NCBI RefSeq assembly: GCF_029428875.1
Contig: NZ_JAJSOO010000001.1
Span: 6,110,501 to 6,174,500, forward strand
Direction: 5' to 3'
From: Streptomyces sp. JH34
GTDB lineage: Bacteria > Actinomycetota > Actinomycetes > Streptomycetales > Streptomycetaceae
Length of the DNA stretch: 64,000 nt
Shown: piece by piece, positions 35,278 to 43,970 of the stretch
Layout of the letters: each line of letters begins with the position of its first letter
Numbering within the stretch: the stretch's first letter is position 1
Translations under genes and position numbers: made by a program
The notes under the pieces: generated by a model
Databases searched by the model: none
What the model saw: only the letters and a program-made list of their open reading frames with translations
Told to the model about the DNA's origin: nothing

Positions 35278-36440
35278 ATGACAGAGCGCGCGCAGACTGC
35301 ACCCGGTCGGCGGACCCTGCTGGGGGCCGCCGTCCTCGGTACGGCGGTGCTCGGAACATCCGGCGCGGCGAACGCCGCCGGGCGTGGCGCGCCTGCCGGG
35401 CGTGGCGGTGGGCACGGTTCCTACCGTGACCTCCCGGTGCCCACCGTCATCGGCCACCGGGGCGCCAGCGGCTACCGGCCCGAACACACGCTCGGCTCCT
35501 ACCAGCTGGCGCTGGACATGGGCGCGCACATCGTCGAGCAGGACCTCGTGCCGACCAAGGACGGGCACCTCGTCTGCCGGCACGAGAACGACATCACCGG
35601 CACCACGGACGTCGCCGAGCATCCCGAGTTCGCGAGCCGCAAGGCCACCAAGCGGGTCGACGGGGTGTCGCTCACCGGCTGGTTCACCGAGGACTTCACC
35701 CTCGCGGAACTCAAGACGCTCCGCGCCAAGGAGCGGATCCCCGGCAACCGCCAGGAGAACACGGTGTACGACGGGCGCTGGGAGATCCCGACGTTCGAAG
35801 AGGTCCTGCGCTGGGCGGACGAGGAGGGCCGCAGGCGCGGCAGGACCGTCTGGCTCTACGTCGAGACGAAGCACCCCTCGTACTTCAGGGGTCTCGGCCT
35901 CGGCCTGGAGGAGCGGCTCGCCAAGCTGCTGCGCCGCCACGGCCGCCACCGGGCGAACTCCGCGCTGATCCTCCAGTCCTTCGAGCCGAGCTCGATGCAG
36001 CGGATGGCGAAACTCGTCGCCACCCCGCGCGTCGTCCTGCTGTCGGGCCCGAAGGAACGCCCGTGGGACTTCGTCGAGGCCGGCGACCCCGCACCGTCGC
36101 CGATCTGGTCCGGCCCGCCGGACTGAAGTGGATCGCGTCGTTCGCGCAGGGCATCGGCCCCACCCTGGACCTGGTCATCCCCCGCGACGGCTCGGGACGG
36201 CTCACCACGCCCACCGCCCTGGTCGCGGACGCCCACGCGCGGGGCCTGGTCCTGCACCCGTACACGATGCGCAACGAGAACAGTTTCCTGCCCGCGGACT
36301 TCCGGCGCGGCACGGACCCGAATGCCTACGGCGACGTGTTCGGGGCCCTGCGGGTGTACTTCGAGGCGGGTATCGACGGGATCTTCTCCGACAACCCCGA
36401 CACGGCCCTGCTCGCGGCCGCCGACTTTGCCAAGGACTGA
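35278..36440 (+). pseudogene. Secreted glycerophosphodiester phosphodiesterase, disrupted by a frameshift
   Basis: From 35278 the product has a Tat-like signal (GRRTLLGAAVLGTAVLG) and the GDPD start 'VPTVIGHRGASGYRPEHT', with 'VEQDLVPTKDGHLVCRHEND' supplying catalytic acids and His. The frame ends at 36126, but near 36090 the coding sense moves to the next frame (from PRTVADLVRP to a normal C-terminus 'GIFSDNPDTALLAAADFAKD', ending 36440). One missing C in the run at 36088-36091 explains this. If the base is really absent the enzyme is truncated; otherwise it is an intact exported phosphodiesterase of ~387 aa that feeds phosphate/glycerol scavenging. Confidence 0.85.
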
Positions 36441-36576
36441 GTGCCCGGGAAGGACCCGGTGCCCGGGCGGGGCCCACGGCCGGGCCGGAGGCGTCAGCCG
36501 TCCGGCCCGCATGCCCCGGTCGGGTGGAGCTCCCCGGACGGGGCAACCGGCCCCGCCCGGCGAGCGTTGACGGGAC

Positions 36577-37146
36577 ATGACTCTTCTTGATCATGTCCCC
36601 CCGGCCCCGGCCGGGAAGGCGGACGGCCGGGCGGGAGAGGCCGTCCTCGCCCTGCACGCCCTGGTACGGGCGGAAGCGGCAGCCGAGGCCCAGGCCGCCG
36701 GGACCGAGGCCGCGGACCTCGAACAGGCGGTCTGGCTGCGGCTGCTGGAGCGCCGGCCCGGCCCGGAGCTTCCCGAGGACCCTGTCCGCTGGGTCCGCAC
36801 CGCGGTCCGCGCCGAGGCGCGCGTCGCCCGCCGCAGGGTCCGGCGCGAGCGCGCCTTCACCGCGGGTGAACAGCCGGGCGACTGGGCGGACTGTCCCGAA
36901 CGGATCGCCGTGGGGGCCGACGAACGCCGCGCGCTGCGCACCGCGGTGGGACGGCTGCCCGGGAGGTGTCCGCGTCTGCTCGGGGCGATGCTGGCCGCCC
37001 ACGATCCCACGTACCGCGAGATCGCAGGGGAGTTGGGTATGTCACAGGGCAGTTTGGGTCCGATGCGTTCCCGATGCCTTGGATGTCTGCGCAGAATGCT
37101 CGCGACGGAGGTTGTAGCTCCTGAACTGCGGGGAATGGAGCGGTAG
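36577..37146 (+). CDS. Sigma-70 region-4-like protein
   Basis: A 189-aa protein. The C-terminal part 'LRTAVGRLPGRCPRLLGAML' followed by 'TYREIAGELGMSQGSLGPMR' and 'SRCLGCLRRML' is a sigma region 4 helix-turn-helix. Upstream, 'LEQAVWLRLLERRPGPELPE' and 'PVRWVRTAVRAEARVARRRV' resemble a reduced ECF region 2. It is therefore probably an ECF-like sigma factor or derived regulator. No anti-sigma gene is adjacent. Length agrees with small ECF proteins. Confidence 0.75.
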   Translation: MTLLDHVPPAPAGKADGRAGEAVLALHALVRAEAAAEAQAAGTEAADLEQAVWLRLLERRPGPELPEDPVRWVRTAVRAEARVARRRVRRERAFTAGEQPGDWADCPERIAVGADERRALRTAVGRLPGRCPRLLGAMLAAHDPTYREIAGELGMSQGSLGPMRSRCLGCLRRMLATEVVAPELRGMER

Positions 37147-37183
37147 ACAACCGGCGGAGCAGGTGAGCGGGAGGCATGCACAC

Positions 37184-37687
37184 ATGGGCATGAGCGTGAC
37201 CATCTCGGCGGCGACAGCACAGGACGTCGAGCAGATTTTCCGACTCCAGTACCTCTGCTTCCAGAGCGAGGCGGAGCTCTACGGCAACTACCGGATCGAC
37301 CCGCTCGTCCAGTCCCTCGACTCGGTTCGGGACGAAGTCGGCACGGACCTGGTGTTCGTGGCCCGGCTCGGCGACGAAGTCGTCGGCTCCGTACGCGGCT
37401 TCACCGACGCGGACGGCACCGGCCGGATCGGCAAGCTCTGCGTCCACCCCCGGCTCCGCAACCACGGCCTGGGCACCCGTCTGCTGCGTGCCGCCGAGTC
37501 CGGTCTCACGGACGGGCGTTCGGCCACCCGCTTCCGCCTGCACACGGGGGAGCGCAGCGAGGGCAGTCTCCGGCTCTACCGCAAGGCGGGTTACGCCCGG
37601 GTGGGCAACGCCACCGGAGGTGACGGCGTCCGGCTGGTCCTGCTGGAGAAGGACGCCGACGCGCCGGCGTACGTGACCAGCGCCTGA
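37184..37687 (+). CDS. GNAT-family N-acetyltransferase
   Basis: A 167-aa acetyltransferase with one GNAT domain. Motif A is 'GKLCVHPRLRNHGLGTRLLR' and motif B is 'SLRLYRKAGYARVG'. ATG 37184 is nine bases after GGGAGG; ATG 37190 would be too far. It is 37 bp after the sigma-like gene and may share its transcript. Substrate unknown. Confidence 0.87.
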   Translation: MGMSVTISAATAQDVEQIFRLQYLCFQSEAELYGNYRIDPLVQSLDSVRDEVGTDLVFVARLGDEVVGSVRGFTDADGTGRIGKLCVHPRLRNHGLGTRLLRAAESGLTDGRSATRFRLHTGERSEGSLRLYRKAGYARVGNATGGDGVRLVLLEKDADAPAYVTSA

Positions 37688-37715
37688 ACCACCCCGGCGA
37701 CGCCCGGAGCCAGGC

Positions 37716-37769
37716 GTCACGTGCGCCGGTCGGTCACGTGCGCCGGTCGGTCACCACGTGCGCCGGCCG
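37716..37769. repeat. Three tandem copies of a 17-20 bp unit containing CACGTG
   Basis: Two identical copies of GTCACGTGCGCCGGTCG (37716-37732, 37733-37749) and a 20-base variant with an inserted CCA (37750-37769) lie between convergent genes. Each holds the palindrome CACGTG. Confidence 0.85.
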
Positions 37770-37778
37770 TCACGAGCG

Positions 37779-38231
37779 TCAGGCGTTACGCGCGCGGCGC
37801 AGCCAGATCATCCCGGTGACCGGCAGGATCACCGGGATGAACAGGTAGCCCATGCCGAATTCCGACCAGACCGTGCTGTCGGGGAATGCGGACGGCTCCA
37901 ACCGCGTCCAGGTGCCGATGACCAGCACGCCCGCGAGCTCGGCGGCGCAGCACATCAGCGCCGCCTTCCGCGCCTTCTCCCCGCCCCGCACCAGCGAGTA
38001 CGTGATGAAGCCGTACACGACGGCGGCGACGGCCGAGAGGACGTACGCGAGCGGCGCCCTGCCGAAGTCCATGATCATCTCGACGATCGAGCGGGACGCG
38101 GCGGCCACGGTGAACACCCCGTAGAACCAGACCAGTACCCGGCCGGGCCCCGTGCCGAGCTCGAACCGCTGCTTTTGTTCCGGGGTGTCGTGCTGCGGGG
38201 CGGGCGCCCCGGCGCGGTCGGTGTCGCTCAT
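37779..38231 (-). CDS. Integral membrane protein
   Basis: A 150-aa protein with four likely membrane segments (roughly residues 33-50, 63-85, 93-110, 125-145) after a polar N-terminal tail of about 28 residues. It ends MIWLRRARNA with a positive-inside C-terminus. No domain with known function is recognised. It begins two bases after the end of the upstream membrane-protein gene, so both form one operon and may act as a pair. Confidence 0.8.
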   Translation of the reverse strand: MSDTDRAGAPAPQHDTPEQKQRFELGTGPGRVLVWFYGVFTVAAASRSIVEMIMDFGRAPLAYVLSAVAAVVYGFITYSLVRGGEKARKAALMCCAAELAGVLVIGTWTRLEPSAFPDSTVWSEFGMGYLFIPVILPVTGMIWLRRARNA

Positions 38232-38233
38232 GG

Positions 38234-38593
38234 TCACTTTCCCCAGATGTCGTAGAGCCGCACTTCGAGGACGGCGAGGACGACCGCACCGGCAGCCACC
38301 GTCACCGAACCCCAGCGGGTCCGTTCCGACAGCGACAGGAACCCTGCCGCGGGCACGGCCGCGAAGGCGCCGATCAGATAGGCGATGAAGATCGTCATGC
38401 CCTGATCGGGCCGCTCGCCCCGGGCCAGCTGCACGATACCCACGAGCAGCTGTGCCAGCGCCAGCACGGAGACGACGGCCATGCCGATGAAGTGCCAGTC
38501 CTTGGTGGGCTGGTCCCGGTAGGCGGCGATTCCGCACCAGGCGGCGAGGGCGAGCGCGGTCACGGCGACCGCGACCGTCAGGGCGTCAAGCAT
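38234..38593 (-). CDS. Small integral membrane protein
   Basis: A 119-aa protein with four hydrophobic segments (around 5-22, 38-58, 68-85, 92-110) and short polar loops, ending RLYDIWGK. Function unknown. TAATAT 9 bases before the ATG (minus strand of 38603-38608) could be a -10 box, making this the start of a two-gene leaderless transcript with the 150-aa membrane protein. Confidence 0.8.
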   Translation of the reverse strand: MLDALTVAVAVTALALAAWCGIAAYRDQPTKDWHFIGMAVVSVLALAQLLVGIVQLARGERPDQGMTIFIAYLIGAFAAVPAAGFLSLSERTRWGSVTVAAGAVVLAVLEVRLYDIWGK

Positions 38594-38602
38594 GGAGTGA
38601 GG

Positions 38603-38608
38603 ATATTA
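38603..38608 (-). promoter_or_regulatory. Possible -10 box for membrane-protein operon
   Basis: TAATAT on the minus strand lies 9 bases before the ATG at 38593, fitting a very short or absent leader. No convincing -35 is seen. Between here and the leader ORF at 38866 the sequence holds no gene. Confidence 0.4.
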
Positions 38609-38865
38609 CGGACGGGCGGAGCGGCCGCGTGCGGGCCCGGGACGCCACGGCGGGCGGGGGCGGGTGTCTCAGGAATCGTGGCCTTTGCCACAGCGTGTGC
38701 ACAGCATGATCGTGAGGCAGTCGGCGCGAGCAGCGGCCGTTGGCACGTCTCCGCAGGTCAAAGCGGTGCGAAGGGTGATCGCGGTGCCGGGCGTACGCGA
38801 GCCCACGCTGTCCGCTATGCGGACGCCTCGGGTCGTCGGAACGTTACGTCTGTTTTACTTGGGCC

Positions 38866-38952
38866 ATGACCACGACGAGCTACCGCAGCCCTGCGACCGA
38901 GGCGATCCTGACGCCCGGTGCTCGTTGTATGTGTCGAATGCGCGCCTTCTGA
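38866..38952 (+). CDS. Putative leader peptide upstream of metNIQ (attenuator)
   Basis: A 28-codon ORF starting at an ATG 306 bp before metN. It begins MTTTSYRSPATEAILTPGAR and ends C-M-C-R-M-R-A-F before TGA. Two Cys and two Met codons lie within five positions near its end, unusual for any short ORF and fitting for a gene set that takes up methionine. No RBS precedes the ATG, as in leaderless Streptomyces leader peptides. The 219 bases between its stop and metN contain several GC hairpins (for example CTCGC / GCGAG at about 38970-38987). Attenuation by Cys/Met supply is inferred. Confidence 0.6.
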   Translation: MTTTSYRSPATEAILTPGARCMCRMRAF

Positions 38953-39171
38953 GGGCCCCCGCCTGAGCCTCGCGCCCCGAAGCGAGACCGAGCCCGTGCC
39001 ATCCGCACCCAGCGGACCGAGCCGGCCCGGGCATGCCCCGCGCCCTGCGTACCCGCCGGAGCCGGGCCGTGCCGGGACTCCCACCGGTCGACCTCTGAGA
39101 ACAGTCTCACCAGACGAATGCCCCGTGCCCGGCGGACACCGCGCCGCGCACTCGACAGTGACGGAAACCCT

Positions 39172-40239
39172 GTGATCACCACTTCGGGCCTCACGAAGGT
39201 CTACCAGTCACGCGGCCGGGAGGTCACCGCCCTGGACGGCGTGGACCTGCACGTCCGCGAGGGCGAGGTCTACGGCGTCATCGGACAGAGCGGCGCCGGC
39301 AAGTCCTCCCTCATCCGCTGCGTCAACCTCCTCGAACGCCCCACCTCGGGAACCGTGACGGTCGACGGCCAGGACCTCACGGCCCTCGCCGGACGCGGCC
39401 GCCGCGCCGGGAAGGAACTCCGCCGGGCGCGCAGCCGCATCGGCATGGTCTTCCAGCACTTCAACCTGCTGGACTCGCGCACCGTCCGCGACAACGTCGA
39501 GCTCCCCCTGGAGATCCTCGGCATCTCCGGGCAGGCACGCACCCGCAAGGCGCTCGAACTCCTCGACCTCGTCGGCCTCGCCGACAAGGCGAAGTCCTAC
39601 CCCGGCCAGCTGTCCGGAGGTCAGAAGCAGCGCGTCGGCATCGCCCGCGCCCTCGCGGGTGATCCGAAGGTGCTCCTCTCCGACGAGGCGACCTCCGCGC
39701 TGGACCCCGAGACCACCCGCTCCATCCTGCAGCTGCTGCGCGACCTCAACCAGGAGCTCGGCCTCACCGTCCTGCTCATCACGCACGAGATGGACGTCGT
39801 CAAGACCGTCTGCGACTCCGCCGCGCTGATGAAGAAGGGCCGTGTCGTCGAATCGGGCACCGTCGGCGCCCTGCTGGCCACCCCCGGCTCCGAGCTGGCC
39901 CACGAGCTGTTCCCGGTCGGCGGCACCGCCTCCGGCCCCGGGGCCACCGTCGTCGACGTCACCTTCCACGGCGAGACCGCCGCCCGGCCGGTGATCTCGC
40001 AGCTCTCCCGCACGTACAACATCGACATCTCGATCCTCGGTGCCGCGATGGACACCGTCGGCGGCAAGCAGATCGGCCGCATGCGCATCGAGCTCCCCGG
40101 CGGCTTCGAGGAGAACGTCGTGCCGATCGGCTTCCTGCGCGAGCAGGGTCTCCAGGCCGAGATCGTGGACGGCGCCCCCGCCGCCACCGAGATCCCCTCC
40201 CAGACCCCCGCCGCGATCACCAAGGAGGTGGCGAAGTGA
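39172..40239 (+). CDS. metN: Methionine ABC transporter, ATP-binding protein
   Basis: A 355-aa ATPase. Walker A is at 38-45 (GQSGAGKS), signature LSGGQKQR near 147-154, Walker B with Asp171-Glu172 and an H-loop in 'LITHEMD'. The C-terminal ~80 residues (from about 270) form the NIL/ACT-like domain that binds methionine and inhibits transport when it is plentiful. The GTG at 39172 gives the usual start 'MITTSGLTKVY'. It overlaps metI by four bases. Confidence 0.95.
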   Translation: MITTSGLTKVYQSRGREVTALDGVDLHVREGEVYGVIGQSGAGKSSLIRCVNLLERPTSGTVTVDGQDLTALAGRGRRAGKELRRARSRIGMVFQHFNLLDSRTVRDNVELPLEILGISGQARTRKALELLDLVGLADKAKSYPGQLSGGQKQRVGIARALAGDPKVLLSDEATSALDPETTRSILQLLRDLNQELGLTVLLITHEMDVVKTVCDSAALMKKGRVVESGTVGALLATPGSELAHELFPVGGTASGPGATVVDVTFHGETAARPVISQLSRTYNIDISILGAAMDTVGGKQIGRMRIELPGGFEENVVPIGFLREQGLQAEIVDGAPAATEIPSQTPAAITKEVAK

Positions 40240-40907
40240 CCTGGTCCGAAATGCAGCCACTGCTCTCGCAGGGAACCATCGACACCCTCTACATGGTGCT
40301 CTGGTCCACGCTCGTCACCGTCGTCGGCGGGCTTCCGCTCGGCATCCTGCTCGTCCTCACCGACAAGGGCGGACTGCTGCAGAACACCGTGGTGAACAAG
40401 GTCATCGGCGTGATCGTGAACATCGGCCGCTCCCTGCCCTTCATCATCCTGCTGATCGCGCTGATCCCCTTCACCACCTGGGTCGTCGGCACCTTCATCG
40501 GCCCGTCCGCGATGATCGTGCCGCTCGCCATCGGCGCCATCCCGTTCTTCGCGCGGCTCGTGGAGACCGCGGTGCGCGAGGTCGACCACGGGCTCGTCGA
40601 GGCAGTCCAGTCGATGGGCGGCTCCATCCCCACGATCGTCCGCAAGGTCCTGCTGCCGCAGGCGCTGCCCTCGCTCGTCTCCGGTGTCACCACCACCGTC
40701 ATCGTGCTCATCGGCTACTCCGCCATGGCCGGCGCGGTCGGCGGTGAAGGGCTCGGCTCCAAGGCCGTCACCTACGGATTCCAGCGCTTCGACAACCAGT
40801 TCATGCTCATCACCGTCGTGCTGCTCATCGTCATCGTGACCGTGGTCCAGCTGATCGGTGACGGGGCCGTGCGCCTGCTGGCCCGCCGGGGCCGCACCAC
40901 CTCCTGA
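40236..40907 (+). CDS. metI: Methionine ABC transporter, permease
   Basis: A 223-aa permease with five or six membrane helices. The EAA loop that contacts MetN is 'EVDHGLVEAVQSMGGSIPTI', and 'GVTTTVIVLIGYSAMAGAVGGEGLG' (split: residues ~148-172) is diagnostic of the MetI family. GTG start overlapping metN. metQ follows after 72 bp. Confidence 0.95.
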   Translation: MTWSEMQPLLSQGTIDTLYMVLWSTLVTVVGGLPLGILLVLTDKGGLLQNTVVNKVIGVIVNIGRSLPFIILLIALIPFTTWVVGTFIGPSAMIVPLAIGAIPFFARLVETAVREVDHGLVEAVQSMGGSIPTIVRKVLLPQALPSLVSGVTTTVIVLIGYSAMAGAVGGEGLGSKAVTYGFQRFDNQFMLITVVLLIVIVTVVQLIGDGAVRLLARRGRTTS

Positions 40908-40979
40908 CCTTCCCTCCCCATGAAGCCCGAACTCCTTGTCCGGGCGCACCACCTTCACCACCGGAAAGAGGCACTCTTC

Positions 40980-41846
40980 GTGCGTAAGAACATCAAGATC
41001 ACCGCTGCCGCCGCAGCCACCGCCGCCCTCGCCTTCGGGCTCAGCGCCTGCGGTACGGACTCCGACCCGGCCTCCAAGGGCGAGACCGGCGCCAAGGCGG
41101 ACACCTCCAAGGCGCTCGTCGTCGCCGCGTCCCCGACGCCGCACGCCGACATCCTGAACTTCGTCAAGAAGAACCTGGCGGACAAGGCCGGCCTCAAGCT
41201 CGAGGTCAAGGAGTTCACGGACTACGTCCTGCCGAACACCGCCACCGAGAACGGCCAGGTCGACGCCAACTTCTTCCAGCACAAGCCCTACCTGGACGAC
41301 TTCAACAAGAAGAACAAGACCCACATCGTCCCGGTGGTCGACGTCCACCTCGAGCCCCTCGGTCTCTACTCCAAGAAGATCAAGGACGTCAAGGACATCA
41401 AGGCCGGCCAGACGATCGCCGTCCCGAACGACACCACCAACGAGGGCCGTGCGCTCCAGCTGCTCGCCGAGAACGGGCTGATCACCGTCAAGGACGGCGT
41501 CGGCACCAACGCCAAGCTCAGCGACATCACGGACAAGAAGGGCCTGGAGTTCAAGGAGATCGAGGCCGCGACCGTGCCCCGCGCCCTGGACGACGTGGAC
41601 GCCGCCGTCATCAACGGCAACTACGCCATCGAGGCCGACCTGAAGCCCGGCCAGGACTCCCTGGTGCTGGAGAAGGCCGACGGCAACCCGTACGCCAACT
41701 TCCTCGCCGTCAAGGACGGCAACGAGGACGACCCCCGGGTCCAGAAGCTGGCGAAGCTCCTGAACTCCGACGAGGTCAAGAAGTTCATCGAGGACACCTA
41801 CAAGGGCTCGATCATCCCGGCCTTCGGTGAGCCCGCCAAGTCCTGA
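40980..41846 (+). CDS. metQ: Methionine-binding lipoprotein
   Basis: A 288-aa NlpA-family binding protein. The signal ends in a lipobox LSAC with lipidated Cys24. The mature part has 'VVAASPTPHADILNFVKKNL', 'NGQVDANFFQHKPYLDDFNK' and 'VPNDTTNEGRALQLLAENGL', all family hallmarks. The GTG at 40980 is chosen because AGAGG lies nine bases upstream and gives a proper lipoprotein signal. It completes metNIQ, and a double-stem terminator follows. Confidence 0.95.
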   Translation: MRKNIKITAAAAATAALAFGLSACGTDSDPASKGETGAKADTSKALVVAASPTPHADILNFVKKNLADKAGLKLEVKEFTDYVLPNTATENGQVDANFFQHKPYLDDFNKKNKTHIVPVVDVHLEPLGLYSKKIKDVKDIKAGQTIAVPNDTTNEGRALQLLAENGLITVKDGVGTNAKLSDITDKKGLEFKEIEAATVPRALDDVDAAVINGNYAIEADLKPGQDSLVLEKADGNPYANFLAVKDGNEDDPRVQKLAKLLNSDEVKKFIEDTYKGSIIPAFGEPAKS

Positions 41847-41869
41847 CCCCCGGGCACCACTTGCCGCAC

Positions 41870-41905
41870 GAGCCCCGCTCACCCGCATCCGGGTGTGCGG
41901 GGCTC
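41870..41905 (+). terminator. Terminator of metNIQ
   Basis: GAGCCCCGC / GCGGGGCTC (9 bp) encloses CACCCG / CGGGTG (6 bp) around a 4-base loop, with one T:T mismatch between the stems. It starts 24 bases after the metQ stop. Confidence 0.88.
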
Positions 41906-41988
41906 CGCCGTGCGGACCCGGTCATGCGCGTCCACCGTCCGATGCTGCATGCTGGTGGCTTTACACGGTCTTCGGCATGGAGCTGCGC

Positions 41989-42627
41989 ATGACTACCACC
42001 TTCCCGTCCATCTCCATCAGCACGGACAGGTTGGTGCTGCGCCCCTTCGACATGGCGGACGTCCCCGCCTACATCGAGATGATGAACGACGAGCTGGTCA
42101 CCGCCTGGACCGACGCACCGCACCCCTACACCCAGGTCGACGCCGAACGGTGGGTCCGCAGGATCGCGCCCGCCGAGCGCTCCCAGGGCAACGGCATCGT
42201 CTTCGCCGTCACCGAGTTCCTCACCCAGCGCCTCGTCGGTTCGGTACGGCTGCTCAACACCGACCGGCGTACCCTGGCCACCGAGGTCCGCTACATCACC
42301 GCTCCCTGGGCGCGGGGCGAGGGATACGCGACCGAGTCCGTGCTGGCCCTCGCCGAGTGGCTCTTCCGTGACCAGGGCTTCGAGCGGATCGAGCTGCGCA
42401 CCCCCGCCGGAAACACCGCCTCCCAGCAGGTCGCCCAGAAACTGGGCTGCATCAGCGAGGGCGTCCTGCGCAACGCCCGGATAGCCAGGACCGCCACCGA
42501 GGACGGCGGATGGACCGACATCAGGACCGACCTCATCGTGTGGGGGCTCCTGCCCGAGGACCTGGAGGGCGTCGCCGAGCAGCTGGCCGAAGCGGGCGGC
42601 TACGGCGCCTACAACGACTGGAACTGA
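41989..42627 (+). CDS. GNAT-family acetyltransferase (RimJ/RimL type)
   Basis: A 212-aa acetyltransferase: 'STDRLVLRPFDMADVPAYIE', 'ATEVRYITAPWARGEGYATE' (motif A region) and 'RIELRTPAGNTASQQVAQKL' are typical of RimJ/RimL-like proteins. The C-terminus 'GGYGAYNDWN' is unusual but in frame. ATG 41989 has GGAG at 8 bases; ATG 41977 is an in-frame alternative. The substrate may be a protein N-terminus or a small amine. Confidence 0.87.
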   Translation: MTTTFPSISISTDRLVLRPFDMADVPAYIEMMNDELVTAWTDAPHPYTQVDAERWVRRIAPAERSQGNGIVFAVTEFLTQRLVGSVRLLNTDRRTLATEVRYITAPWARGEGYATESVLALAEWLFRDQGFERIELRTPAGNTASQQVAQKLGCISEGVLRNARIARTATEDGGWTDIRTDLIVWGLLPEDLEGVAEQLAEAGGYGAYNDWN

Positions 42628-42746
42628 ACCCGCTCCCGCGCATCGGGAGCCACCGGCAGGCCGTTGGTACGGACCGGATACGCTCACCCTTGCTCCGCCC
42701 ATCCCGCGCGGAGCCCCGCCTGCTCACCCCCTGGAGACTGACGACG

Positions 42747-43970
42747 ATGGCCGACCGGGTCACGGTGATCGGCTGGGACGGCTCCCCACTGCCCGGAGCC
42801 GCGACAGCGGCGCTCTCGGCCGCCACGCTCGTCGCCGGTGCCGGCCACCACCTCGAGCTCCCCGAAGTACCCGAGCGCGCGGAACGCATCCGCCTCGGCA
42901 GCGTCGACCTGGCCGCCCGCAGGATCGCCGGCCACCGTGGCAGCGCCGTGGTCCTGGCCGACGGCGACCCCGGCTTCTTCGGCGTCGTACGCACTCTGCG
43001 CAAGCCGGAACACGGACTCGAGGTCGAGGTCGTTCCCGCCGTGTCGTCCGTCGCCACCGCCTTCGCCCGCGCCGGAATGCCCTGGGACGACGCGCAGATC
43101 GTCGTCGCGCACCCCCGCACCCTGCGCCGCGCGGTCAACGTCATCCGCGCCCACCACAAGGTGGCCGTACTGACGTCCCCCGGCGCGGGCCCCGTCGAAC
43201 TCGCCCTGCTGCTCGACGGTGTCCACCGCACCTTCGTGATCTGCGAGGAGCTCGGCACCGTACGTGAGCGGGTCACCGTCCTCACCTCGGACAAGACGGC
43301 GGACCACACCTGGCGCGACCCCAACGTCGTCATCGTGGTCGGCGGCGGTCCCGAGACCTCCGCCACCGGCGTCTGGATCGCCGGCCGCCGCCCCGCGAAC
43401 CCCGAGGACGTCCGGGGCTGGGCCCTGCCGGCCCCGGCCTACGGTGGCACGGGGGAGGGCGGCGAGGGGGAGTCGCCCGGACTGCGCGCGGCCCAGTTGG
43501 CCCGCCTCGGGCCCCGCACCGGCGACCTCGTCTGGGACATCGGATGCGGCGGCGGCGCCCTCGCCGTGGAGGCGGCCCGCTTCGGCGCGGCCGTGCTCGC
43601 CGTGGACAACGACCCCGACGCCTGCGCGCGCACGACGGCCGCCGCCCGTGCCTTCCAGGTGAGCGTCCAGGTCGTCAGGGGCACGGCGCCGCACGTCCTC
43701 GAACGCCTGCCCGAGCCCGATGTCGTTCGGATCGGCGGGGGCGGGGTCCGCGTGGTCACGGCGGTCGCGGACCGGCGGCCGGAACGCATCGTCACCCATG
43801 CCTCGAACCGGGACGAGGCAGAGGCGCTGGGTGCTGCCCTCGCGGAGAACGGGTACACCGTCGAGTGCGCCCTGCTCCAGTCCGTCGAGCTGGACACCTC
43901 CGCCTGGGCGGAGCGCGAACGCTCCGTCGTCTTCCTGCTCTCCGCCGTGCGTTCCGACCTCGCCCCCTGA
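42747..43970 (+). CDS. cobL: Precorrin-6Y C5,15-methyltransferase (decarboxylating)
   Basis: A 407-aa bifunctional corrin enzyme. The N-terminal CbiE-type tetrapyrrole methylase spans about 1-205 (ADGDPGFFGVVRTL is its SAM-site loop) and the C-terminal CbiT-type class I methyltransferase spans about 235-400 (DLVWDIGCGGGALAVEAARF). It methylates C5 and C15 and removes the acetate side chain in cobalamin synthesis. RBS GGAG is about 11 bases before ATG. The next gene (BluB-CobT) is also cobalamin-related but has its own control region. Confidence 0.93.
   Translation: MADRVTVIGWDGSPLPGAATAALSAATLVAGAGHHLELPEVPERAERIRLGSVDLAARRIAGHRGSAVVLADGDPGFFGVVRTLRKPEHGLEVEVVPAVSSVATAFARAGMPWDDAQIVVAHPRTLRRAVNVIRAHHKVAVLTSPGAGPVELALLLDGVHRTFVICEELGTVRERVTVLTSDKTADHTWRDPNVVIVVGGGPETSATGVWIAGRRPANPEDVRGWALPAPAYGGTGEGGEGESPGLRAAQLARLGPRTGDLVWDIGCGGGALAVEAARFGAAVLAVDNDPDACARTTAAARAFQVSVQVVRGTAPHVLERLPEPDVVRIGGGGVRVVTAVADRRPERIVTHASNRDEAEALGAALAENGYTVECALLQSVELDTSAWAERERSVVFLLSAVRSDLAP

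Follow-up and report, generated by a model that had tools for sequence, protein, structure and literature searches.

Immediately upstream of the methionine importer operon metNIQ of Streptomyces sp. JH34 lies a very short ORF that ends in a cluster of Cys and Met codons, which raises the question of whether translation of this ORF governs the expression of the operon and, if so, by what route. The locus was analyzed within a stretch of 64 000 nucleotides of the contig NZ_JAJSOO010000001.1 (hereafter the window, to which all coordinates refer) and compared with related loci from the genus, the family and the class. The best explanation, which we consider probable, is ribosome-mediated attenuation of metNIQ by a leaderless leader that answers to the supply of methionine and/or cysteine; the stalling, the amino acid that is sensed and the output are all components that we infer. 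Such a leader would probably let the cell sense a shortage of sulfur amino acids.

The leader ORF and its transcription start

The 28-codon ORF that the original prediction described as ending in C-M-C-R-M-R-A-F is real (Table 1). It encodes the peptide MTTTSYRSPATEAILTPGARCMCRMRAF and terminates with TGA. Its codons 21-25 read TGT ATG TGT CGA ATG, in agreement with the claim of two Cys and two Met codons within five positions, and the 219 nt that were said to separate the leader stop codon from the GTG of metN were recovered by counting. The best NCBIfam match of the MetN protein is TIGR02314 (MetN), with 374.8 bits, which is below the cut-off of 499.7. The leader peptide is unique within its own genome (E 1.4e-14, next match 0.55); the 28-aa ORF has no match in NCBIfam or Pfam, and a peptide search of a plasmid collection with the leader gave no match either. 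A divergent ORF of 119 amino acids with a membrane-like sequence (38234-38593, minus strand) is located upstream of the leader, and several relatives have a similar ATG start at the matching place.

Table 1. Features of the metL-metNIQ region of Streptomyces sp. JH34, in window coordinates
Feature	Positions	Strand	Basis
Palindromic box TGTCCGCTATGCGGACG	38809..38825	.	conserved palindrome count
Promoter motif TCTGTTTTACT, probable -10 region of leaderless transcript	38849..38859	+	motif count, S. lividans TSS
metL leader ORF, 28 codons	38866..38952	+	peptide matches, conserved frame
Predicted three-way junction: P1 38872-38880/38920-38928; P2 38884-38887/38892-38895; P3 38896-38904/38912-38919	38872..38928	+	minimum-energy fold, covariation
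Cys/Met stretch C21 M22 C23 R24 M25 R26, with near-invariant CGA-ATG	38926..38943	+	codon counts
GAGGGCCC element overlapping the stop codon	38951..38958	+	fixed distance to last Met codon
Hairpin P4, stem CTCGC/GCGAG, invariant loop GCCCCGAA at 38974-38981	38969..38986	+	locus count, covariation
C-rich, poorly conserved spacer, candidate Rho-loading region	38987..39137	+	C vs G composition
Conserved block GCACTCGACAGTGACGGAAA before metN, with weak GGA as possible RBS	39148..39167	+	listed in 145 loci
metN, methionine importer ATPase, GTG start	39172..40239	+	TIGR02314, NIL domain PF09383
metI, permease	40236..40907	+	ORF list and family matches (NCBIfam, Pfam)
metQ, substrate-binding lipoprotein	40920..41846	+	ORF list and family matches (NCBIfam, Pfam)

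The existence of the leader is known in one species, where it bears the name metL (PMC8079986). Thus, the original prediction, which regarded a mixed Cys/Met leader for metNIQ as a separate case, had been anticipated: metL of S. lividans occupies the same place before metNIQ, and one of the loci collected here (L071) reproduces the published 29-aa peptide letter for letter (PMC8079986). That description covers one species, presents metL as a methionine/threonine-containing leader and leaves termination unclear; the passages on metL do not discuss cysteine, RNA structure or conservation in other species (PMC8079986). In a search confined to the open-licence literature, as distinct from subscription papers, only PMC8079986 prints ARCMCRRMCAF, and the other papers that contain RCMCR are unrelated, judging by their titles. 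As far as this literature was searched, the conservation, the mixed Cys/Met reading, the covarying RNA elements, the fixed spacing and the occurrence in a second family are new.

The leader of Streptomyces sp. JH34 very probably starts leaderless and needs no RBS. The motif TCTGnTTTAmT precedes the leader ATG in 140 of 147 loci, with a gap of 6 nt (57 loci) or 7 nt (83 loci), and in S. lividans TK24, RNA-seq shows a leaderless transcript at the leader ORF (metL, SLIV_29928; PMC8079986). The observation that the ORF has no RBS was, accordingly, correct and only has to be qualified, in that the RBS appears to be absent because the start is leaderless, with a -10-like motif 6-7 nt before the ATG. 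A transcript start downstream of 38952, an eventuality that the original prediction had raised, is not what is found: in the sister species S. lividans, the start is the ATG of the ORF (PMC8079986). A scan of 38550-39250 for sigma-70 promoters detected none.

Farther upstream, 126 of 147 loci contain a box of the form GTCC-N5/6-YGGAC, whose start lies at -57 to -60 (101 loci) or at -66 to -69 (24 loci) relative to the ATG; the two positions differ by about one helical turn, as expected of a regulator site. The sequence GTCCGNNATNCGGAC occurs once in the window, compared with a mean of 0.02 in shuffles. The box is likely to be a regulator-binding site of the leader promoter. When one mismatch is tolerated, the palindrome is found at 38 places in its own genome, compared with 24 for a reversed control pattern, and no regulon emerged, the inspection extending to one further place, the closest in form (L132). 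There, the palindrome TGTCCGATATACGGACT (2441-2457 of L132) lies upstream of an ORF that resembles an aminopeptidase by eye, and no link to methionine was seen at this locus.

It could be proposed that metNIQ is controlled solely from the promoter, via this palindromic box, with the leader being a passive conserved 5' region. The frequency of the box and its two positions are compatible with such an arrangement, as is the proposal that the regulator SenR acts on metN of S. coelicolor (PMC4991794). However, a passive region would not keep the reading frame, the Cys/Met codons, the CGA codon and the covarying hairpin that are described below, and we consider control from the promoter only to be improbable. 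Promoter control and leader control can coexist.

Conservation of the codons, the reading frame and the leader

Matches to the leader peptide with E<0.01 were found in 137 of 150 genomes of the genus. From these 137 genomes, 110 loci were read (108 parsed and 2 more), and together with 39 others, which include further members of the genus, they yield 149 leaders. The counts over 147 loci omit L220, a chance match, as well as L093 and L106, which are unparsed and enter only the counts over 149; the counts over 145 loci further omit L192 and L195, whose fetched stretches contain no P-loop; in L201 and L211, the leader start is shifted by one codon.

An Arg-Met pair is present near the stop codon in 148 of 149 leaders. 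The exception, L106, ends in GARCRCCTCAR and contains four Cys and no Met in this region. At least two Cys are likewise found in 148 of 149 leaders (the exception is L195), and in 142 of 147, a Cys stands immediately before the Arg or immediately after the Met. After the Met, 108 of the 147 leaders have Cys, 37 have Arg and 2 have His, and the number of codons between the Met and the stop is three in 130 and two in 17. The Arg codon is CGA in 146 of 147 leaders, compared with none of the 41 Arg codons in the metNIQ genes of Streptomyces sp. JH34; TGT and TGC account for 299 and 145 Cys codons, respectively, in the 147 leaders, compared with 0 and 3 in the same metNIQ genes.

Between the ATG and CGNATG, nine different distances from 66 to 99 nt occur, and the distance is a multiple of 3 in 147 of 147 leaders, of which 108 were chosen by a peptide pattern, favoring in-frame ORFs, and 39 come from frame-blind matches to an RNA model. 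In contrast, the distance from GAGG to the loop of hairpin P4 is spread over the three frame classes (70, 40 and 21 loci). Because the lengths within the ORF keep the frame and those beyond it do not, the frame conservation is strong evidence that the leader is translated. In three loci (L113, L114 and L218), an insertion of about 10 codons (RAWPSPTG-like) separates the first Cys-Met codons from the terminal R-M-C without breaking the frame.

No single residue of the leader is more constant than the Met of the Arg-Met pair, and Cys codons remain in both Met exceptions, namely, L106 and a locus from a second family (L409, family f17), which has Thr at the matching place. The leader probably answers to both methionine and cysteine. 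A leader answering to either amino acid would suit a cell that is able to make cysteine from imported methionine.

The search was extended to the family with R1, a covariance model of the leader ORF built on 89 sequences. At E<=0.01, R1 matched 137 of 249 family genomes, in 11 of 17 genera, with at least one chance match among them (L220, without the promoter motif, the P-loop and R-M); outside the family, the best E was 0.005. From the family genomes without a leader at E<0.01, 25 were chosen and searched for metN, which is missing at E<=1e-60 from 13 of them and present in 12. After three of these 12 were set aside (contig ends, or the P-loop missing from the fetched stretch), nine readable metN loci remained, and all nine have a diverged leader ending in R-M-C-x-x-stop, seven of them with the same promoter motif ahead. 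Within the family, conservation of metN is accompanied by that of the leader ORF, its reading frame and its Cys/Met codons. This is what the original prediction had anticipated from an alignment of the region before metN across Streptomyces, and the opposite pattern, with metN kept and the ORF or its Cys/Met codons lost, was observed in none of the nine readable family loci. The distribution of metN itself is patchy: besides being absent from the 13 family genomes mentioned above, it is found at E<=1e-90 in 47 of 246 genomes sampled from the class.

The second actinobacterial family with such leaders, f17, was sampled by reading the best 30 of the metN matches from 56 genomes. Among these best 30 loci, 24 have an upstream Cys/Met-rich ORF whose richness is equaled by at most 2 of 100 mononucleotide shuffles, and seven (L256, L401-L404, L406 and L407) contain the core CGAATGTG..TGAGGGCCC followed by P4. 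The R2 model included these seven core sequences and matches them by construction; R3, a core model from 33 sequences of the first family only, recovered exactly the same seven among the 30 loci, with E between 1.6e-16 and 1.6e-11, and no other match appeared at E<=1. In two of the f17 core loci, the P4 stem is the compensatory CTCAC/GTGAG. The f17 leaders are different in their N-terminal halves, and the P1-P3 junction is not recognizable in these leaders by eye; the R-M-C codons stay. Some f17 leaders end otherwise, for example, in RMCAMGGMPSMR, and lack the core, and are still Cys/Met-rich. A second type of f17 leader before metN has CAMGGMPS, or a sequence very similar to it, at its end, contains as many as four Met codons and lacks the GAGGGCCC/P4 core (L257, L260, L261, L415, L416 and L423).

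In a class-wide scan, strong R2 matches came only from the genus of Streptomyces sp. JH34 (39) and from three f17 genomes (L256, L403 and L406); in the genome of JH34, the R2 match that ranks after the leader itself has E 0.29. Beyond families f1 and f17, R2 matched 10 genomes, with E between 7e-5 and 0.01. Among the stretches fetched for these matches, that of L461 lies in a coding ORF, and that of L462, which itself belongs to f17, lacks a P-loop motif. A draw from the class gave 26 metN matches outside the family, of which 25 were read, 18 of the 25 being from f17. Seven of the 25, all from f17, have a Cys/Met ORF score of at least 4, which was reached by 0 of 60 shuffles, and L278 (family f28) has a score of 3, equaled by 0 of 60 shuffles. 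Most of the remaining loci have no such ORF, and the device is therefore not general in the class.

The constancy of the leader end could also reflect arrest by the nascent peptide, whereby a C-terminal Arg-Met-Cys peptide would stall its own ribosome on a metabolite, without any sensing of codons. The near-universal Arg-Met and its narrow range of distances from the stop would suit such a peptide. Several features count against it: the N-terminal halves are free to vary, the Met can go while the Cys stays (L106), the ends of f17 leaders differ and yet remain rich in Cys and Met, and the synonymous choice of CGA is kept almost without exception although a peptide mechanism has no need of it. 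We regard arrest of this kind as unlikely, compared with the reading of codons by the ribosome that we favor.

RNA structure within and beyond the ORF

The original prediction placed hairpin-forming sequence in the 219 nt between the leader and metN. One conserved hairpin, P4, is indeed found after the stop codon; however, the stretch as a whole exceeds its shuffles in folding stability by only a small margin (z -1.68, equaled by 13 of 200), and the conserved structure is mostly confined to this hairpin and to the ORF, whose fold is more stable than that of shuffles (z -2.41, 2 of 200 as good).

The predicted structure inside the ORF is a three-way junction (P1-P3). In an alignment of 66 diverse family sequences that was made without reference to structure, 88.4% of the cells are paired and nine pairs show changes on both sides; the double-change cells number 48, compared with 20.2 in shuffles, none of 500 shuffles reaching 48. 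When the junction is slid by 1-3 columns, the paired fraction drops to 25.6-43.4%; the version slid by -1 also has nine two-sided pairs, but only 22 cells. Other measures are less favorable: the count of further pair types was reached by 42 of 500 shuffles of the 66 sequences, and RNAalifold kept only 7 pairs on the same alignment (-2.5 kcal/mol). The evidence from the genus alone (89 sequences) is weaker and does not prove the junction, the true junction and the version slid by -2 both having 4 double-change pairs. The clearest example is a P1 pair for which 28 of the 66 sequences have G-C and 23 have A-U. This pair couples residue 5 of the peptide to the residue after Pro-Gly, which are Ser/Ala in 106 and Asn/Val in 22 of the 147 leaders, so that two linked amino acid changes (Ser-Ala vs Asn-Val) result from a single base pair. 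Taken together, the case for a junction conserved with covariation appears good, if not final, given that shuffles leave the relatedness of the sequences in.

Two further elements are located at and after the stop codon. The motif GAGG[GC][CT], which corresponds to GAGGGCCC of the window, is found in 140 loci and, in 138 of these, begins 10-12 nt beyond the last Met codon. This distance is the same whether the Met is followed by two or by three codons before the stop, so that the element keeps its spacing from the Met codon and not from the stop. P4 with the loop GCCCCGAA (one extra C tolerated) is present in 131 and absent from 16 of 147 loci. In an alignment of 40 of the 44 listed core rows, 99.5% of the P4 cells are paired, and 6 are double-change cells, compared with 0.6 in shuffles; the number of pairs with double changes was reached by 33 of 500 shuffles, and the cells and the score by none. 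All 131 loci with P4 have the motif GGG[CT] near the stop, compared with 6 of the 16 without P4, a co-occurrence that is no more than suggestive, with the P4-less loci belonging in part to one clade. By sequence complementarity, GGGC near the stop could pair with GCCC of the P4 loop. In the window, no U tract follows the hairpin.

A covarying junction together with an invariant hairpin loop ahead of a methionine gene brings to mind a riboswitch, in which the junction and P4 would bind a ligand, such as SAM, and the ORF would be incidental. SAM riboswitches and the Streptomyces-metH and metK RNAs are structured RNAs before methionine or SAM genes in the same genus (PMC8079986). In contrast to these, the metL region contains a conserved translated ORF, and no Rfam covariance model (release 15) matched 36000-43000 on either strand at E<=1. 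The strict reading frame and the persistence of the R-M-C codons in f17, where the junction is no longer recognizable, also speak against a ligand-binding RNA, which we consider very improbable.

Possible routes from ribosome position to metN expression

The likeness of the layout to ribosome-mediated attenuation, which was the central claim of the original prediction, holds for the translated ORF with Cys/Met codons at its end; on the other side of the ledger, it extends neither to an intrinsic terminator nor to a covarying alternative stem. A scan for intrinsic terminators over 38550-39250 found none, as also no typical Rho-independent terminator is reported for metL of S. lividans (PMC8079986), and neither was a covarying alternative partner detected nor an antiterminator established.

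Within the explanation that we favor, the sequence of events would be as follows. Ribosomes would start on the 5'-terminal AUG and translate the metL leader; a shortage of charged Met-tRNA and/or Cys-tRNA would delay them on the Cys/Met codons that immediately precede the stop. A ribosome slowed there would cover the 3' strand of P1, whereas one at the stop codon would leave P1 free; a ribosome near the last Met would also reach GAGGGCCC and hence could affect its contact with the P4 loop. Through the altered RNA structure, the metNIQ message would then be completed more often or become easier to translate. Ensemble folding of 49 of the 145 loci is consistent with the effect on P1, with 6.96 modeled P1 pairs in the free RNA, 7.01 with the ribosome at the stop and 1.73 with the ribosome on the Cys/Met codons. 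In these terms, ribosome position can be written into the modeled RNA structure at two points, which is a matter of geometry rather than a demonstration.

As to the output, the composition of the spacer points to Rho. C exceeds G over the whole stretch from the stop to metN in 145 of 145 loci, with a mean C minus G fraction of 0.162, compared with 0.022 ahead of the ORF and 0.057 in the first part of metN; in the window, the C-skew is moderately unusual, 2.3% of equal stretches on either strand being as high. A C-rich spacer and the lack of an intrinsic terminator would suit Rho, and Rho-dependent termination in the spacer has, in our estimate, a little less than an even chance of being the output. 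Translational control at the metN start appears rather less probable, and an output of some other kind is unlikely.

One version of translational output is a lock in which the Cys/Met stretch pairs with the conserved block before metN until a stalled ribosome breaks the pairing. Complementarity of this kind would suit translational control like that of the LEU element of leuA (PMC1262725) or of the polycysteine leaders of mycobacteria (PMC13236596, PMC9031893). Among 32 leader windows, the stretch is, on average, the best partner of the block (-16.7 vs <=-14.1 kcal/mol), and in 62 of 145 loci no other leader window ranks above it; in the window, 12 of its 13 positions can pair with the block, and more than 3 pairs are expected in 23 of the 49 modeled loci. 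However, the pairing shows no covariation, the energy being -18.65 kcal/mol with the own partner and -18.64 with swapped ones (53 of 100 swaps as good); 2.6% of shuffles do as well for the window, but this share ranges from 0.2 to 15.5% over the six loci tried; and the modeled accessibility of the metN start is nearly constant over ribosome positions (0.44 to 0.47), hardly increasing when the stretch is masked. We consider a lock of this type doubtful. A small hairpin within the metN block (CACT-CGAC-AGTG) looks broken, by eye, in several loci.

Codon-reading attenuation by metL has several relatives among known systems. Leaderless polycysteine uORF attenuators of mycobacteria were reportedly described by Canestrari et al. 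in 2020. Like metL, the mycobacterial elements are leaderless Cys ORFs before sulfur operons with no typical terminator, and they have contiguous Cys codons and precede cysteine genes (PMC13236596, PMC9031893). In metL, by contrast, Cys is interspersed with Met and Arg (C-M-C-R-M), the operon encodes a methionine importer, a junction is predicted inside the ORF and a conserved hairpin follows it. The LEU element of leuA is another actinobacterial leader ORF whose regulatory codons, in this case for Leu, may pair with the gene start region (PMC1262725), whereas the equivalent pairing in metL shows no covariation. In attenuators of the trp type, as in metL, the regulatory codons lie a few codons before the stop and a hairpin follows (PMC1262725); metL differs in having no intrinsic terminator in 38550-39250 and no demonstrated antiterminator. 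Tentatively, and with the chances rather against it, metL could be assigned to a composite attenuator class of two actinobacterial families, in which a CGA-AUG-UGY core reads both Met and Cys and gates the GGGC/GCCC contact between GAGGGCCC and P4, with no intrinsic terminator.

If codon-reading attenuation is the correct explanation, the methionine importer of many antibiotic-producing soil bacteria would be under a leader that reads two sulfur amino acids and dispenses with a classical terminator. It would provide a testable mixed-codon leader, a leaderless ORF acting as a sensor and an RNA element whose spacing seems to be set by the ribosome; a leader so far merely catalogued would gain a likely function, along with a conserved RNA core that no model of Rfam release 15 matches in the window.

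Expression data from S. coelicolor bear on the output as well. After H2O2 treatment, the mRNAs of metN, metI and metQ rise 5.2-, 3.5- and 2.3-fold, together with those of cysteine genes (PMC4991794), a rise that is compatible with mRNA levels responding to a loss of cysteine. The authors attributed the rise of the three mRNAs to the regulator SenR and predicted a SenR site 31 nt before the start codon of metN (SCO1559) (PMC4991794). If transcription starts at metL, this site would fall well inside the metL-metN transcript, so that its assignment may deserve a second look.
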